DNA of 64,000 nucleotides from Thermosipho atlanticus DSM 15807 (GTDB lineage: Bacteria > Thermotogota > Thermotogae > Thermotogales > Fervidobacteriaceae). The stretch lies in contig NZ_FQXN01000001.1 of assembly GCF_900129985.1 (NCBI RefSeq), positions 248,001 through 312,000 on the forward strand, given 5' to 3'. The notes under the pieces are model-generated. The model made no database searches and had not been told where the DNA came from. It worked only from the letters and a program-made list of their open reading frames with translations. How positions within the stretch are numbered: the stretch's first letter is position 1; each line of letters begins with the position of its first letter. This document shows positions 10,921 to 37,651 of this stretch, one piece after another. Position numbers and translations under genes: made by a program.

Positions 10921-10953
10921 TTGCAATGATTTTTAAATACTTTGTGATAAAAT
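10921..10953 (+). promoter_or_regulatory. Possible rlmN promoter
   Basis: TTGCAA (10921-10926) lies upstream of TGTGATAAAAT (10943-10953), which can act as an extended -10. Spacing is 19 to 21 bases depending on which hexamer is used, so this is a weak call. It sits about 30 bases before the rlmN ATG. Confidence 0.35.
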
Positions 10954-10982
10954 ATATTAGGAGTATATTGGGGAGGAAAAAA

Positions 10983-12014
10983 ATGATGAAGAATATTTTG
11001 AATTTTAATTATGATCAACTTCACAAAGAATTTGAAAAATTAGGGTTTGAAAAGTATAGAGTGGATCAAGTACTAGATTGGATATATAAAAAAAGGGTAT
11101 TTAATTTTGAAGATATGACGAATCTTTCCAAAGAACAAAGGAAAGTTCTAGTCGAAAAATTCTACGTAGGAATACCTAAACTTTTAGATATGCAGATTTC
11201 AAAAATTGATAGAACAACGAAGTTTTTATGGGAATTATCGGATGGGAATACTATTGAATCAGTTGTTTTATTTCATACTGGAAGAGTTACAGCATGCATT
11301 TCTACACAAGTAGGTTGTCCTGTGAAATGTAGTTTTTGTGCAACAGGACAAAGTGGTTTTGTTAGGAACTTAAAAGCCGGGGAGATTGTATCTCAAATTC
11401 TTGGAATAGAGTTTTATAGAAATGTTAAAGTTGGTAATGTAGTATACATGGGTATGGGTGAACCACTCCTTAATTTTGATGAAACTTTAAAGAGTGTAGA
11501 AATGTTAAATCACAAAAAGATGTTAAACATTGGAAAAAGACGGATTACAATTTCAACGGTTGGAATTCCTGAAAAAATAATAGAACTTGCTGAGAGAAAC
11601 GTTGATGTAAGATTGGCATTATCTTTACACGCTGCGACAAACTCGAAACGTGATGAGTTAATACCGTTGAATAAAAAATACAGTGTCGATGAATTAATTT
11701 ATGCAATAAAAAAATACCAAGAAATAACTGGTAATAGGGTTACAATTGAGTATCTTTTGATAAGAGAATTTAATGACTATCCAGAAGATGCAGAGAGATT
11801 GGCAGGCTTATTAAAAGGATTGAGTGTTTTTGTTAATCTAATCCCGGTGAATCCTGTTAATCCCAATTTTTATAGGCCCAGTAGATGGGCTATGGAAAGA
11901 TTTAAACAGATTCTTGAGAGACATGGAATTGAAAGTGAAATTAGAGTTGAAAAAGGAACTGATATTGAGGCGGCATGCGGACAATTAAGAAGGAGGAAGT
12001 TAAAATCAAAATAG
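10983..12014 (+). CDS. rlmN: Dual-specificity 23S rRNA/tRNA (adenine-C2)-methyltransferase RlmN
   Basis: A 343-residue radical SAM enzyme methylating C2 of A2503 in 23S rRNA and of A37 in some tRNAs. The cluster-binding triad is Cys112, Cys116 and Cys119 (CPVKCSFC). GMGEPLLNFD and RITISTVG are family motifs, and the resolving cysteine lies in the C-terminal AACGQLRRRKL. The open frame extends to 10926, but GGGGAGG sits just before the two adjacent ATGs at 10983 and 10986, so I start there. Its end overlaps the PASTA gene by 40 bases. Confidence 0.95.
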   Translation: MMKNILNFNYDQLHKEFEKLGFEKYRVDQVLDWIYKKRVFNFEDMTNLSKEQRKVLVEKFYVGIPKLLDMQISKIDRTTKFLWELSDGNTIESVVLFHTGRVTACISTQVGCPVKCSFCATGQSGFVRNLKAGEIVSQILGIEFYRNVKVGNVVYMGMGEPLLNFDETLKSVEMLNHKKMLNIGKRRITISTVGIPEKIIELAERNVDVRLALSLHAATNSKRDELIPLNKKYSVDELIYAIKKYQEITGNRVTIEYLLIREFNDYPEDAERLAGLLKGLSVFVNLIPVNPVNPNFYRPSRWAMERFKQILERHGIESEIRVEKGTDIEAACGQLRRRKLKSK

Positions 12015-12496
12015 TCAAATATTTTTTGATATTTATATTAGGAATATTTTTCGGAGTTCTTTCCTTCTTGGGTTGGGTATATTACCAAGAGAAAATAAAC
12101 ATCACGTATATACCAGATGTTATTGGTTATGATATTAATGAAGCTCAAAAAATATTAGAAAAAAACGATTTGAAAGTTTTAAGATTTGGAAATGGTAAGG
12201 TAATTAACACAATTCCGCAAGTTGGATTAGTTGTAAAAAAGGGAAGAATTGTTAGAATTTTTGGGAAATCGATGGAAACTAACGAGTATACGATCCCGAA
12301 TTTTTTTGGTGTAAATTATAAAACTGTAATTAAAATATTAGAAAATTGGGGTTTGAAGGTGGAAGTAGTGAAGATAAGATATCCGGGACCTGATGGAAGG
12401 GTTTTAGCAACATATCCTGGTGCCGGTAAAAGAATCAAAACTGGAGATTATATAAAAATATTGGTAGATGATGGTGAAATAGGAGGAGGTCAATGA
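11975..12496 (+). CDS. Single-pass membrane protein with two PASTA domains
   Basis: A 173-residue protein: basic N terminus, one membrane segment (about 14-34, VKYFLIFILGIFFGVLSFLGW), then two PASTA repeats (about 45-107 and 108-170; IPDVIGYDINEAQKIL and IPNFFGVNYKTVIKIL). PASTA repeats outside the membrane bind cell-wall fragments or beta-lactams in kinases and penicillin-binding proteins. No kinase or transpeptidase domain is present. It lies between rlmN and rsgA, the place of the prpC-prkC pair in Firmicutes. The start is uncertain: ATG 11975 has only a weak GAGG before it, while a strong AGGAGGAAG lies inside the frame with no usual start codon at proper distance. Translation is probably coupled to rlmN. 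Confidence 0.85.
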   Translation: MRTIKKEEVKIKIVKYFLIFILGIFFGVLSFLGWVYYQEKINITYIPDVIGYDINEAQKILEKNDLKVLRFGNGKVINTIPQVGLVVKKGRIVRIFGKSMETNEYTIPNFFGVNYKTVIKILENWGLKVEVVKIRYPGPDGRVLATYPGAGKRIKTGDYIKILVDDGEIGGGQ

Positions 12497-13359
12497 GAAG
12501 AAAAGGAGTCGTAGTAAAATTTTTATCAAATATGGCCATTGTTCAGGATTATGAAACTGGAGAGAAGTTTCTTTGTAAGTTAAGAGGTAAGTTTAAAGAG
12601 CAAAAAATTAGACCTATAGTCGGGGATATAGTCGAATACAGGATTATTGTTAAAAAAGAAGGGGTAATTGAGAACATATATAATAGAAAAAATGAACTTT
12701 TGAGACCAAGAATTGCAAATGTTGATCAAGTAATTGTAGTAACAACTTTAAAATCTCCGGAAACACCTTTAGGAATATTAGATAGATATCTTGTGCTTGT
12801 AGAAAATGCTAATCTTCCTGCTGTAATTGTTTTGAATAAAGTTGATCTGCTTACCGATGATGAAATAAAAAATTTTGTTGATATCTATGGTGATATTTAT
12901 GATGTTATAATTACCAGTGCAAAAACTGGTTATGGAATAGAAGAGTTAAAGAAGATATTAAAAGGGAAAATAGCTACTATGGCAGGAATGTCAGGGGTTG
13001 GAAAAAGTAGTTTGTTAAACGCTATAAATCCAGGTCTTTCATTAAAGGTTAATGAAATTTCCCAAAAATTGGATCGTGGAAGGCATACTACAACGGTGAT
13101 CGAATTATTGTATTTTGATTTTGGAGGTTGGATTGCAGATACTCCAGGTTTTGCAAATTTAGATATTTCATCAATAAAACCGGAAAATTTAAAAAAATTA
13201 TTTCCAGAATTTCGTAGATTTTCTTGTTTGTTCCTAGACTGTAACCACATCCATGAGCCAAATTGTGGTGTAAAAGAGGCTGTAGAGGATGGTAAAATAA
13301 AATCAAGTAGATATAATAGTTACATAGATATGTACAAAGAGCTTACGGAGGGAAAGTGA
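12493..13359 (+). CDS. rsgA: Small-subunit ribosome biogenesis GTPase RsgA
   Basis: A 288-residue circularly permuted GTPase that checks maturation of the 30S subunit. An N-terminal OB fold (about 1-70) is followed by G4 NKVD (115-118), G5, the P-loop GMSGVGKS (165-172), G3 DTPGF, and a C-terminal zinc finger with Cys245, Cys250, His252 and Cys258. GAGGAGG precedes the ATG, which overlaps the PASTA gene stop by 4 bases (ATGA type). Full length. Confidence 0.96.
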   Translation: MRRKGVVVKFLSNMAIVQDYETGEKFLCKLRGKFKEQKIRPIVGDIVEYRIIVKKEGVIENIYNRKNELLRPRIANVDQVIVVTTLKSPETPLGILDRYLVLVENANLPAVIVLNKVDLLTDDEIKNFVDIYGDIYDVIITSAKTGYGIEELKKILKGKIATMAGMSGVGKSSLLNAINPGLSLKVNEISQKLDRGRHTTTVIELLYFDFGGWIADTPGFANLDISSIKPENLKKLFPEFRRFSCLFLDCNHIHEPNCGVKEAVEDGKIKSSRYNSYIDMYKELTEGK

Positions 13360-15033
13360 TTGTTTTTACCAACTACACGTGAGGAAATGGATAAGCTGGG
13401 TTGGAAATATTTAGACGTTATCTTAGTAACGGGTGATGCATATATTGATCATCCTTCGATAGGAGTTTCTTTAATTGGGCATTTTTTAGTATCAAAAGGT
13501 TATAAGGTTGGTATTATTGCACAGCCTGATTGGAAGACTGATGAAATAACGAGGTTGGGAAGACCTCGTTTATTTTTTGGTGTTACAGCAGGAAATGTTG
13601 ATTCTATGGTTTCAAATTATACTGCGTCTCGTAAAAAGAGAAAAAGGGATGATTATACACCTGGAGGATATGGTGGAAAAAGGCCTGACAGGGCTACAAT
13701 AGTTTATTCTAATTTGATAAGAAAGTATTTTAAAAATGTTCCAATAGTTCTTGGAGGAATTGAAGCAAGCTTAAGAAGATTTTCCCATTATGATTGGTGG
13801 GCTAATAAAGTTAGAAAATCCATATTATTAGATTCAAAGGCTGATCTTCTTGTATACGGAATGGGTGAGCTTGCAACTTTCGAAATTGCTAAATGTCTTG
13901 AAAAGTATGGTAATGTAGATAAGTGCAAAAATATCAGGGGAATAATGTGGTGGACTTCATCTAGTGTTAAAGGTATTTATTTGCCTTCACATGAAGAAGT
14001 TGCAAGAGATCCAGAAAAATATTCTGAGATGTTTTTAAAACAGACTATGTTTACTGATCCTTTTAAAAAGTTTAAGCTGGTACAAAAACAGGATAATAGA
14101 TATGTTGTTCAAAATCCGCCACAATATCCTTTATCCCAAAAAATGTTGGATGAAATTTATTTATTACCTTTTGAAAGGAAGGTTCATCCATTTTATTTAA
14201 GAAAAGGTGAAGTAAAAGCAATTAAAACGGTAAAATTTTCAATAACTGCTGTTAGGGGGTGCTACGGTTCTTGTGCATTTTGTGCTTTGACCCAACACCA
14301 AACAACACACTTAGTTTCTAGAAGCAAAGAATCAATCCTTGAAGAAGTTAAAATTCTCTCAAGACTAAAGGATTTTAAAGGAACAATTATGGATGTTGGT
14401 GGTCCGACAGCAAATATGTACAATTCTAAGTGTGATATCAGAAGCACACGTGGACAGTGTACAAAATTTTGCATGTATCCAAGAATATGTGCTAACAATG
14501 AATCGGATCATGAAGATTTTCTAGATTTGTTGTATGCAATTAAATCACTTCCGAATATAAAGAATGTTTTTATTTCTTCAGGAATAAGACATGATCTAGT
14601 TTTAAAAGATAAAAGGTATGGAAATGAATTCATAAAAAGATTGCCTGAGTTTACTCCGGGACAGTTAAAATTAGCTCCGGAACATTCTCATGAAAGTGTA
14701 TTAAGAATTATGAGGAAACCTAATATTGATTTATTTCTTGAATTCAAGAGTAAGTTTGAGAAATATTCAAGAAGAAAATACGTAATAGCATATTTTATAG
14801 TTGGACATCCTGGAGAAGGAAAAAGTGAGAATGATCATCTCAAAAAGTTTATAGAAACAAAATTAGGTTATAAACCCCAACAAATTCAAATATTTACTCC
14901 TACTCCTGGAACACTAAGTACTACGATTTATTATACAGGAATTGATCCTTATACGAATGAAAAAGTGTTTGTGGAAAGGTCATTAAGAAACAGGAATCTA
15001 ATGAAAAAGAACGTAATGATGAAAAAAAAGTAA
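13360..15033 (+). CDS. YgiQ family radical SAM protein
   Basis: A 557-residue protein of the YgiQ (UPF0313) family, whose reaction is not established. An N-terminal cobalamin-binding-like region (about 15-190) precedes the radical SAM core with Cys301, Cys305 and Cys308 (CYGSCAFC), then further conserved cysteines in the TRGQCTKFCMYPRIC segment. The start is TTG at 13360, directly after the rsgA stop, with CGGAGGG at proper distance; no better start exists downstream. It is the last gene of the rlmN operon. Compared with long homologues the C-terminal tail is short, as in many thermophiles. Confidence 0.88.
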   Translation: MFLPTTREEMDKLGWKYLDVILVTGDAYIDHPSIGVSLIGHFLVSKGYKVGIIAQPDWKTDEITRLGRPRLFFGVTAGNVDSMVSNYTASRKKRKRDDYTPGGYGGKRPDRATIVYSNLIRKYFKNVPIVLGGIEASLRRFSHYDWWANKVRKSILLDSKADLLVYGMGELATFEIAKCLEKYGNVDKCKNIRGIMWWTSSSVKGIYLPSHEEVARDPEKYSEMFLKQTMFTDPFKKFKLVQKQDNRYVVQNPPQYPLSQKMLDEIYLLPFERKVHPFYLRKGEVKAIKTVKFSITAVRGCYGSCAFCALTQHQTTHLVSRSKESILEEVKILSRLKDFKGTIMDVGGPTANMYNSKCDIRSTRGQCTKFCMYPRICANNESDHEDFLDLLYAIKSLPNIKNVFISSGIRHDLVLKDKRYGNEFIKRLPEFTPGQLKLAPEHSHESVLRIMRKPNIDLFLEFKSKFEKYSRRKYVIAYFIVGHPGEGKSENDHLKKFIETKLGYKPQQIQIFTPTPGTLSTTIYYTGIDPYTNEKVFVERSLRNRNLMKKNVMMKKK

Positions 15034-34544: not shown

Positions 34545-37013
34545 TTAATCTACCTCTATAAGCTTAATATTGTAGTTATCAAGAACAGGCCTTGATTTCA
34601 ATATCTTAATTTTTTTATTATTTTTTTCCAAAATAACACTTTCATTCATATTTCCTCTTTCGATGTCTTTATACGAGTTTATGTGTTTAAGTTCATAAAC
34701 AACTTTTTTAATTCCTCTTTGAATTTCCGGTTTTTTGTCAAATATTAAAGTATATGTGTCGTCCGGGACGTTGAGTTTAAAAGTTGAAATACCATCAGTT
34801 GCATAACCACCTTTGGATATTACATTAACTGCAAGTTTTTGATTTCTTATTACACACAAAGCATACGGGGCAAGATAATTTTTGAAGTTTTCGACTGGTT
34901 TAGATACTGAAAAACCCAAAACCGAATACTCCATGTCACACCTTTCCCAAGATTGTTCAGTTTTATATGAATTCTCAATTTTTTTGCCAAATAATTTACT
35001 TGAAAGTTCGATCAACTGGCTATTTACCCCACTTCTGATTTCTTTTAATTTGGAAAGTAACTTTCTTCTACTATCATTAAAGACATCGAATGCTCCAGCT
35101 TTAATTAAAGATTCTACAACCGAGAAGTTTAAGTTGGAGTTTTTTTCTACAAAATCTTCCAGAGAAATATATGGGCTATTTCTTAAAATCTGTTGTTCGA
35201 TTTTTTCGTTAATTCCGTTGATAAGAGTTAAGGGAATAATAAATTCATCTTCTTGTTCATATTTTTGATTCACGTTGGGAAGTTTAACTTTAAACCCCAA
35301 CGTTTGAAGTTCAAAAATTGAAAATTCTTTTTTAGAAGAATCATGTTTTAAAAGAACTTTGAAGAAAACTTTTGGAAAATGCGATTTAAAAAATGATAAA
35401 TAATATGTTATATGAGCGTAAGCTACAGCATGAGATTTATTAAAAGCATATTCAGAAAATTCATATATTATATCAACAATTTGTTGTACTAAATCTTTAG
35501 ACAATCTTTTTGAAAGGTTTGTTTTAAATTTTTTTAAAATATCTTTCATTAAATTCTTATCTTTTTTGGCAACTGCTTTTCTTAAAACATCAGCTTCTTC
35601 TGCCGTAAACCCTGCGTATTTCATAGCAATTTTCATGATTTGTTCTTGGAAAATTAATACTCCATTTGTTTCATTTAAAACATCTAAATTCAAATTTTTT
35701 TCTTTTTTCCATTTTGCATTTGCATACTGATCTACAATCCCCGCTTTCAATGGGCCAGGCCTATTTAGAGACAACAAAATTGAAAGTTCTTCTAAATTTT
35801 CGGGTTTGATAAGTCTCGATATTCTTTTTCCGAGAGGACTATCCAATTGAAATATACCAGTTGTTTGTCCTTTAAGTATAAAATTGTATGACTTTTTATC
35901 TTCAAATTTTGCTGTTCCAAGCTTCTTTTCTAGTTCAGCTAATATAGAAAGAGTACGGAGACCCAAAATATCAAATTTTATATATCCGATTTTTTGAAGA
36001 GAATTCATATCCCACTCTATTACTTGTTCTTTAATAGGAGCTAAGATTTTTTTAGTTGAAATGATGATTCCTGCTGCATGTACACTCTTATGAGTTGGAA
36101 GATTTAAAATAGGTTTTAATTCTTGAAGAGAAACGTTATTTTCAAAAGCTATTTTTTTGAGAGTTTTGAGACCTATATTTGAAAAGGTTGAGATGTGATA
36201 TACATATTTATATTTTTCCCTTAATTTTTCAATTAGTTCTTTTCGTTTTATATCTTCAATATCGAGGTCAATATCGGGAAGTTCCATTCTTCCTTTATTC
36301 AGAAATCTTTCAAACATTAGATTGAATTTTATAGGATTTATTTTTGTAATTCCAAGTTTGTATGACAATAAAGAACCTACTGCACTACCTCTACCGGGTC
36401 CTACTTTTATTCCATGCTTTTCTGCAATATTTACTATGTTATATATTGTATAGAAATAATCCACAAAATTTTTTTCTTTTATAAGATCAATTTCTTTTTT
36501 TAATCTTTCTTCTTCTTGAGGTGTTGCTTTTATTTTTAAAAAGTTGTCTGGAGCTTTTGGAAGAACTTGAGTCGAGTATAGTTTATATTCTTCAACTTCT
36601 AAACATACGTTGAGGTTTTTTAATTCACCGTTTTCGACAGGTTCAACACCTAAATAGTTGCAAAATATTTTATATAGATGTTTTTGTTTAGGAAAGTAAT
36701 ATGCAAAGTATACCTGATTTTCTGGGATGAAATTTAAATTTAAATGTTCAAATTTTTCTGTATTATATGCTTCGATAAGCTCATACAATTCGTGAGTGTT
36801 TCTGGCATAAAAAACCTTGTTTCTATACTTGAATCCTATTATTGGTTTTATGTCATTTTTTTTACATAAATCTATAAACTTTACAGTTGCATGAAAATTT
36901 TCATCACACAACAACAAACATTTTGCCCCAGAATTCTTGGCAAAATTTATAAGACTTTCAAGTTTTAAGATGGAGCCCTTGAAAGAATAAGGTGACACAA
37001 TCGCAGTTATCAT
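34545..37013 (-). CDS. dnaE: DNA polymerase III alpha subunit, short DnaE
   Basis: An 822-residue C-family polymerase, far shorter than the roughly 1,150 residues of E. coli DnaE. The catalytic palm is intact: GPGRGSAVGSLLSYKLGI, LPDIDLDIED with two metal aspartates, and the third in KFDILGLRTL. The N-terminal PHP region is reduced and its HxH motif is missing (SPYSFKGS where active PHP domains have histidines), so it should lack PHP nuclease activity. Helix-hairpin-helix follows, and the C-terminal OB part is short. Thermotoga species are known for a short DnaE next to a separate PolC. The ATG overlaps the rpe stop. Confidence 0.93.
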   Translation of the reverse strand: MITAIVSPYSFKGSILKLESLINFAKNSGAKCLLLCDENFHATVKFIDLCKKNDIKPIIGFKYRNKVFYARNTHELYELIEAYNTEKFEHLNLNFIPENQVYFAYYFPKQKHLYKIFCNYLGVEPVENGELKNLNVCLEVEEYKLYSTQVLPKAPDNFLKIKATPQEEERLKKEIDLIKEKNFVDYFYTIYNIVNIAEKHGIKVGPGRGSAVGSLLSYKLGITKINPIKFNLMFERFLNKGRMELPDIDLDIEDIKRKELIEKLREKYKYVYHISTFSNIGLKTLKKIAFENNVSLQELKPILNLPTHKSVHAAGIIISTKKILAPIKEQVIEWDMNSLQKIGYIKFDILGLRTLSILAELEKKLGTAKFEDKKSYNFILKGQTTGIFQLDSPLGKRISRLIKPENLEELSILLSLNRPGPLKAGIVDQYANAKWKKEKNLNLDVLNETNGVLIFQEQIMKIAMKYAGFTAEEADVLRKAVAKKDKNLMKDILKKFKTNLSKRLSKDLVQQIVDIIYEFSEYAFNKSHAVAYAHITYYLSFFKSHFPKVFFKVLLKHDSSKKEFSIFELQTLGFKVKLPNVNQKYEQEDEFIIPLTLINGINEKIEQQILRNSPYISLEDFVEKNSNLNFSVVESLIKAGAFDVFNDSRRKLLSKLKEIRSGVNSQLIELSSKLFGKKIENSYKTEQSWERCDMEYSVLGFSVSKPVENFKNYLAPYALCVIRNQKLAVNVISKGGYATDGISTFKLNVPDDTYTLIFDKKPEIQRGIKKVVYELKHINSYKDIERGNMNESVILEKNNKKIKILKSRPVLDNYNIKLIEVD

Positions 37014-37651
37014 TTTCTGTAAGTTCTACTTAAATTTTCAAGATTATCGTTTTTAAATATTCCATAGCCCATAATTAAAATGTTTGCTCCTGCATTAATT
37101 ACTGTTTGTATATTTTCATTGTTGATTCCACCATCTACAGCAATGTAATAGTCCATTCCGTATTTTAATTTCCATTCTTTAAGTTTTTTGATTTTTTCAA
37201 GTGATTTAGCAATGAATTTTTGGCCTGAAAAACCAGGATTTACACTCATAACAAGGATTCCGTCTACGTCACTTAGAACTTCTTCTATAGCAGACAAAGG
37301 TGTTCCAGGATTAAGTGTAACAAAAATTTCTGTATCTGTTTCTTTTACTTGTGAGATTAATTTATTAATATGTACTGTTGATTCAATATGAATAGTAATT
37401 CTGTCCACACCTATGGTTAGTAGTTTTGGAATATGAAATTCAGGATTTGTAACCATTAAATGTGCATCTATTGGTAGATTAGTACATCTTTTTACAGCGT
37501 CAAGTACGGGATATGCAAATGTTAAATTTGGGACAAAATGTCCGTCCATGATATCAAGATGGATTTCATCAATGTAAGGTTGTACTCTTTTTATTTCAGC
37601 TTCTAAATTTGTAAGATTTGCACCTAAAATTGAAGCGCTAAATTTTACCAT
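37010..37651 (-). CDS. rpe: Ribulose-phosphate 3-epimerase
   Basis: A 213-residue TIM-barrel enzyme interconverting ribulose 5-phosphate and xylulose 5-phosphate. Conserved elements are SASILGAN, the metal and catalytic residues in HLDIMDGHFVPN, DAHLMV, VMSVNPGFSGQKF and the phosphate-binding VDGGIN. AGGGGG precedes the ATG. In many Firmicutes rpe follows rsgA; here it has moved and leads the dnaE operon. DnaE overlaps its stop by 4 bases. Confidence 0.97.
   Translation of the reverse strand: MVKFSASILGANLTNLEAEIKRVQPYIDEIHLDIMDGHFVPNLTFAYPVLDAVKRCTNLPIDAHLMVTNPEFHIPKLLTIGVDRITIHIESTVHINKLISQVKETDTEIFVTLNPGTPLSAIEEVLSDVDGILVMSVNPGFSGQKFIAKSLEKIKKLKEWKLKYGMDYYIAVDGGINNENIQTVINAGANILIMGYGIFKNDNLENLSRTYRK

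Follow-up and report, generated by a model that had tools for sequence, protein, structure and literature searches.

PASTA biology is known almost wholly from kinases and penicillin-binding proteins (PBPs). The PASTA domains of S. aureus PBP1 are reported to bind peptidoglycan (PMC9426605) and those of the kinase PknB to bind lipid II (PMC6428115). The repeats are described as head-to-tail in the kinases and as a compact pair in PBPs (PMC9426605). The engineered PknB 'TMP' construct has a membrane-plus-PASTA layout without the kinase (PMC4632501), as does the protein considered here. In M. smegmatis a kinase-free membrane-plus-PASTA piece of PknB alters growth and the distribution of nascent wall; constructs with two or three PASTA units are reported to have a marginal effect, a strong one being obtained only with four (PMC4632501). 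A Borrelia burgdorferi protein, BB0063, has been named 'PASTA domain protein' (PMC3757035). It resembles the protein described below in being annotated as a PASTA protein, and it has no assigned function. Its neighbours are presumably fmt and def.

The window analysed, a stretch of 64,000 nucleotides from Thermosipho atlanticus DSM 15807, corresponds to C1:248001-312000 of a 1.64 Mb assembly that is 99% complete. It carries a PASTA-only membrane protein between rlmN and rsgA (Table 1).

Table 1. The PASTA-only gene and relevant genes of the window
Feature	Coordinates	Strand	Details
PASTA-only membrane protein	11975..12496	+	173 aa; ORF, Pfam, hydropathy, AlphaFold model
rlmN	10926..12014	+	upstream neighbour; TIGR00048, 392 bits; 3' end overlaps PASTA gene by 40 nt
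rsgA (B. subtilis cpgA)	12493..13359	+	downstream neighbour; TIGR00157, 255 bits; 4-nt overlap with PASTA stop
YgiQ-type radical SAM protein	13360..15033	+	next in the same gapless run after rsgA
rpe	37010..37651	-	away from its usual post-rsgA place in the window's family

Two stretches of the protein match PASTA (PF03793; E 1.2e-21, 76.9 bits against a cut-off of 23.2) and hydropathy gives a single N-terminal membrane helix. The helix occupies residues 8-38, PASTA 1 residues 44-100 and PASTA 2 residues 104-167, all approximate, and the predicted cytoplasmic tail is of about 10 residues. An AlphaFold2 model, made on 58 slot proteins, displays a helix (residues 2-41) followed by two PASTA folds with a mean pLDDT of 85.8, and a pTM of 0.47 that leaves the mutual orientation of the domains uncertain. 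Both the score and the modelled fold place the protein in PF03793. Pfam matches neither a transpeptidase domain, the mark of a class B PBP, nor a Pkinase domain, the mark of a Hanks-type kinase. The predicted start codon falls within the 3' end of rlmN and is the sole in-frame ATG ahead of the helix. The nearest named relatives are from two Thermosipho MAGs (72% and 69%). Within the genus the gene is under purifying selection, with dN of 0.19-0.24 and dS greater than 1.1, rough values since dS is near saturation.

An earlier note on this DNA had placed the gene in the genomic slot of the kinase PrkC, the Firmicutes order being rlmN, prpC, prkC, rsgA and rpe, and read the product as a PrkC stripped to membrane anchor and wall sensor. 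The adjacency that it described is borne out by the overlaps with both neighbours. Between rlmN and rsgA there is no gene beyond the PASTA ORF, hence neither a kinase gene nor a PP2C phosphatase gene beside it. The absence of both extends to the genome, where no match at E≤0.001 was obtained with PF00069 or PP2C_2, the sole kinase and phosphatase families searched, so the PF00069 search yielded no candidate for the separate kinase partner that the note had suggested looking for. The slot protein alone has Pfam PASTA matches in its genome. It is not, however, the sole PASTA carrier, judging from sequence comparison: one of three transpeptidase proteins, an FtsI-like PBP (L285:1285-3027; 57.5% identity to a PBP of genome G085 across residues 4-580), has a divergent C-terminal PASTA domain, missed by Pfam and alignable with those of Thermotogota relatives.

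Which of the known PASTA families does the protein resemble? The PASTA kinase family NF033483 matches from the helix onward with 53.2 bits, far under its cut-off of 450, as against 31.1 bits for spoVD_pbp. Sequence matches in the PDB are to kinases only, those of S. aureus and M. tuberculosis. With VIA-align both modelled PASTA domains superpose on the PknB/PrkC structures 5e12, 5e10, 3py9 and 3m9g (124-145 residues, rmsd 3.0-4.5), whereas on PBP1 and PBP2x a single domain superposes (56-59 residues) with Z values similar to those of the kinase matches; Foldseek agrees. The predicted tandem, within the uncertainty of its orientation, thus resembles the head-to-tail PASTA repeats of kinases and is unlike the compact antiparallel PBP pair. 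The best family and fold matches are therefore to PrkC, Stk1 and PknB, which have in common with the slot protein a membrane helix followed by head-to-tail repeats and, in PrkC, the slot; they differ in possessing a kinase domain and an adjacent PP2C gene, and the slot protein has two PASTA domains only. With the class B PBPs (PBP2x, PBP1, SpoVD) it shares the PASTA fold but not the transpeptidase; Thermotogota PBPs have one PASTA domain of their own.

Per-domain scores are less uniform. For PASTA 2 the nearest source is another PASTA-only protein in 42 of 57 cases, a kinase in 13 and a PBP in two. For PASTA 1 the sources are not separated (PASTA-only 22, PBP 19 and kinase 17 of 58). Grouping with PBPs, which the earlier note had named as fatal to its proposal, is thus not favoured by PASTA 2, and PASTA 1 is split. 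In a tree of the helix and PASTA 1-2 with 119 rows the Thermotogota slot proteins form one side of a branch with support of 79; this branch is absent from a second tree of 109 rows, from which six kinases (duplicates or long branches) and four long PASTA-only proteins had been dropped. A single kinase clade is not rejected (p-AU 0.834), and the tree carries no direction of change.

In four scans of 103 Thermotogota genomes, 99 had a match for PASTA, 27 for Pkinase, 98 for rlmN and all 103 for rsgA, the last exceeding its cut-off in 98. On one strand rlmN and rsgA are linked in 86 genomes. The slot between them contains a PASTA-only gene in 58 (gap 589-1334 nt; families f1, f2, f3, f10 and f11) and is empty in 28 (gap 104-149 nt; f5, f8 and f9). 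None of the 86 linked slots holds a kinase or is wide enough for a PASTA kinase, and the unrelated gene that would have told against the earlier note is likewise absent. In each filled slot lies an ORF, 161-295 residues long, that begins with a hydrophobic segment near its N-terminus; the 58 products can be aligned as a single family, although that of G079 does not attain E 0.001 with Pfam PASTA. The rlmN-rsgA link was not found in 17 genomes. Six f3 genomes retain the PASTA gene outside the slot; the locus is interrupted at contig ends in G062 and G054, and G004 has the order PASTA-rsgA-rpe. Since 28 genomes with linked rlmN and rsgA manage without it, the gene is not essential to the wall of the phylum. 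On a tree of rlmN and rsgA, in which long outgroup branches join f8, the presence of the slot gene needs two changes, gain and loss not being separable.

In the loci read, rpe directly follows rsgA in f2 (9/9), f3 (8/8), f6 (1/1), f8 (10/10), f9 (17/17), f10 (20/20), f11 (2/2) and f7 (1/2, the second at a contig edge), but in none of 20 loci of f1, the window's family, nor in f4 or f5 (0/1 in each, with one genome apiece in this count). The displacement of rpe that the earlier note saw in the window is therefore a property of its family, which has lost the gene from a place where most other Thermotogota families keep it. Upstream, rsmB and a zinc peptidase precede the pair in f8 (10/10), most of f9 and some of f10. 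From these upstream genes and the position of rpe, the plain form of the locus in the phylum is rsmB-rlmN-[PASTA]-rsgA-rpe, and the window's gene sits in it between rlmN and rsgA, as prkC does in Firmicutes, with no prpC.

The Pkinase genes are most frequent in f9 (16/17 genomes), a family with no slot PASTA gene. They were rejected as displaced slot kinases on reading ten loci, nine from f9, out of 27 kinase genomes, by ORF and hydropathy only: most encode a protein of approximately 280 residues with no clear terminal helix and with other neighbours. The N-terminal motifs of the flanking genes are presumably PHP-type and polyprenyl-synthase-type. In some f9 genomes, among them G018, G019, G020, G021 and G034, a second RsgA paralogue well above the family cut-off is present elsewhere in the genome. 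The idea that slot proteins and PASTA-bearing PBPs replace each other was also discarded; f2, f3, f10 and f11 have both, as does the T. atlanticus genome with its FtsI-like PBP.

A profile made from the 58 slot proteins was run on 390 genomes, including 287 that do not belong to Thermotogota. Most of the best outside matches listed are ORFs of only 182-408 residues, and they rank above most kinases. A non-random sample of 66 short-PASTA loci, with 55 family codes among them, was drawn from the best-scoring rows, and 14 longer loci were added; L253 has no PASTA gene call, so that 65 short-PASTA loci were scored. A slot neighbour was defined as rpe up to three genes downstream, rsgA next, or one of def, fmt, DUF116, rsmB, rlmN or the zinc peptidase next upstream. 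In this best-scoring sample 59 of 65 loci have one, the exceptions being L213, L220, L223, L247, L257 and L259. Downstream, rpe is immediate in 42/65 and within two genes in 48/65, and rsgA is immediate in 3/65; upstream the immediate gene is rsmB in 27/65, fmt in 9/65 and rlmN in 1/65. A core gene immediately before and rpe within two genes after are combined at 27/65 loci. Neighbour labels come from single-seed profiles, with Pfam confirming the RsmB, Fmt, Def, DUF116, MreB, MreC, PP2C and kinase identities on representatives only. The general order outside the phylum is def-fmt-rsmB-(rlmN)-PASTA-(rsgA)-rpe, and 64 of 68 proteins there have three PASTA domains. Among open-licence papers we found no description of this slot outside Firmicutes, which is weak evidence of novelty.

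Kinases occupy the same position at several loci. L268 and L274, Firmicutes-type by gene order alone, read rsmB-rlmN-prpC-PrkC-rsgA-rpe, with PrkC as the kinase/PASTA protein, and uphold the equivalence with the PrkC slot drawn in the earlier note. L272 (kinase/PASTA-rsgA-rpe) and L277 and L278 (rsmB-rlmN-kinase/PASTA-rpe) have no adjacent prpC, and L271 reads kinase/PASTA-rpe. At L236 (4613-6669) a PASTA-only gene overlaps a separate Hanks-type Pkinase gene (68.9 bits), with rpe coming next, so that two genes together resemble PrkC. At L209 (4426-6652) the gene after rsmB, rlmN and a PASTA-only gene bears a weak likeness to kinases (23.9 bits, under the Pfam cut-off). In L269 (6365-8362) and L270 (3351-5342) fmt precedes proteins of about 665 residues that carry three PASTA domains and match kinases or Kdo-kinases only marginally, possibly pseudokinase-PASTA fusions. 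L217 and L245 have two tandem PASTA-only genes between rsmB and rpe. Lastly, def, fmt, a PASTA-only gene, mreB and mreC follow in order at L204 (3554-7574) and L205, with Pfam identities checked for L204; this gene order would fit a role in elongation.

The history of the slot can be read in two ways. PrkC may have been deprived of its kinase domain and phosphatase gene in the Thermotogota ancestor, wall sensing being retained. The slot and the helix-PASTA anatomy are as in PrkC, prpC and the kinase domain are all that sets L268 and L274 apart, and the slot kinases of L272, L277 and L278 could be steps on such a path. Yet kinase-less proteins at 59 of 65 scored loci outside the phylum, across 55 family codes, would demand many independent losses or a single very old one, the tree is neutral, and PASTA 2 is closest to other PASTA-only proteins; we consider this loss possible but doubtful. 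Alternatively, the prkC position may be an old PASTA slot in an operon for translation start and ribosome assembly, with a kinase-free ancestor that a Hanks kinase, such as the separate neighbouring one at L236, joined later and to which prpC was added, giving PrkC, a history that we offer tentatively. For the earlier note it follows that 'PrkC slot' is right, and that the membrane-plus-PASTA anatomy, in family score and predicted fold, is indeed PrkC-like. That PrkC was stripped here is unproven, since proteins lacking the kinase are common in this position and no direction can be read from the trees; as a description it is also too narrow. The slot looks like an old home of wall-binding proteins rather than the site of a one-off loss, and what emerges is a conserved and widespread kinase-free variant of the PASTA system within it.

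What might the protein do? With a short cytoplasmic tail, one helix and two head-to-tail PASTA domains outside, it would be a type II membrane protein, the Thermotogota member of a PASTA-only family in the def-fmt-rsmB-rlmN-[PASTA]-rsgA-rpe slot, acting like the extracellular half of PrkC, minus the kinase. Selection keeps the gene, given that dN is well below dS and that the six relocated f3 copies are retained. From this, the known PASTA ligands and the effect of the PknB piece we infer a binder of nascent wall that paces wall synthesis. By analogy with its domain family the protein would bind peptidoglycan; the tandem may recognise uncrosslinked peptidoglycan or lipid II where the wall grows, and such binding, coupled to the membrane helix, could recruit or pace wall-synthesis proteins with no phosphorylation. 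The analogy with TMP is tempered by the four PASTA units and artificial overexpression of that construct (PMC4632501).

Other roles would use the same parts differently. Were the protein the sensor in a system of two proteins, wall state would be reported to a separate kinase or another cytoplasmic partner, as the gene pairs of L236 and, more weakly, L209 suggest; but its own genome has no PF00069 protein, the Thermotogota kinases stay out of linked slots and abound in f9, where slot PASTA genes are lacking, and the tail is very short, so that we judge this improbable. A passive membrane-to-peptidoglycan anchor with no regulatory part needs only one helix and wall-binding domains, and relatives with three PASTA domains resemble longer spacers. 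That its gene stands, in many families, among genes for ribosome assembly and translation start would, though, be odd for a pure anchor, and kinase-fused versions in the same slot imply a regulatory position; a mere anchor seems unlikely to us. We lean, if only slightly, towards a membrane-tethered binder of peptidoglycan or lipid II, from a widespread PASTA-only slot family, that recruits or paces wall synthesis.

Loss of rsgA (cpgA) in B. subtilis is reported to affect both ribosome assembly and resistance to wall drugs (PMC6449344), and the slot ties a wall binder to this gene. A kinase-free slot protein in many families amounts to a natural experiment on the PASTA part alone, and the slot offers a testable route to how PrkC was assembled or dismantled. 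If the ancestor was kinase-free, many bacteria would read the state of their wall through PASTA proteins with no phosphorylation.
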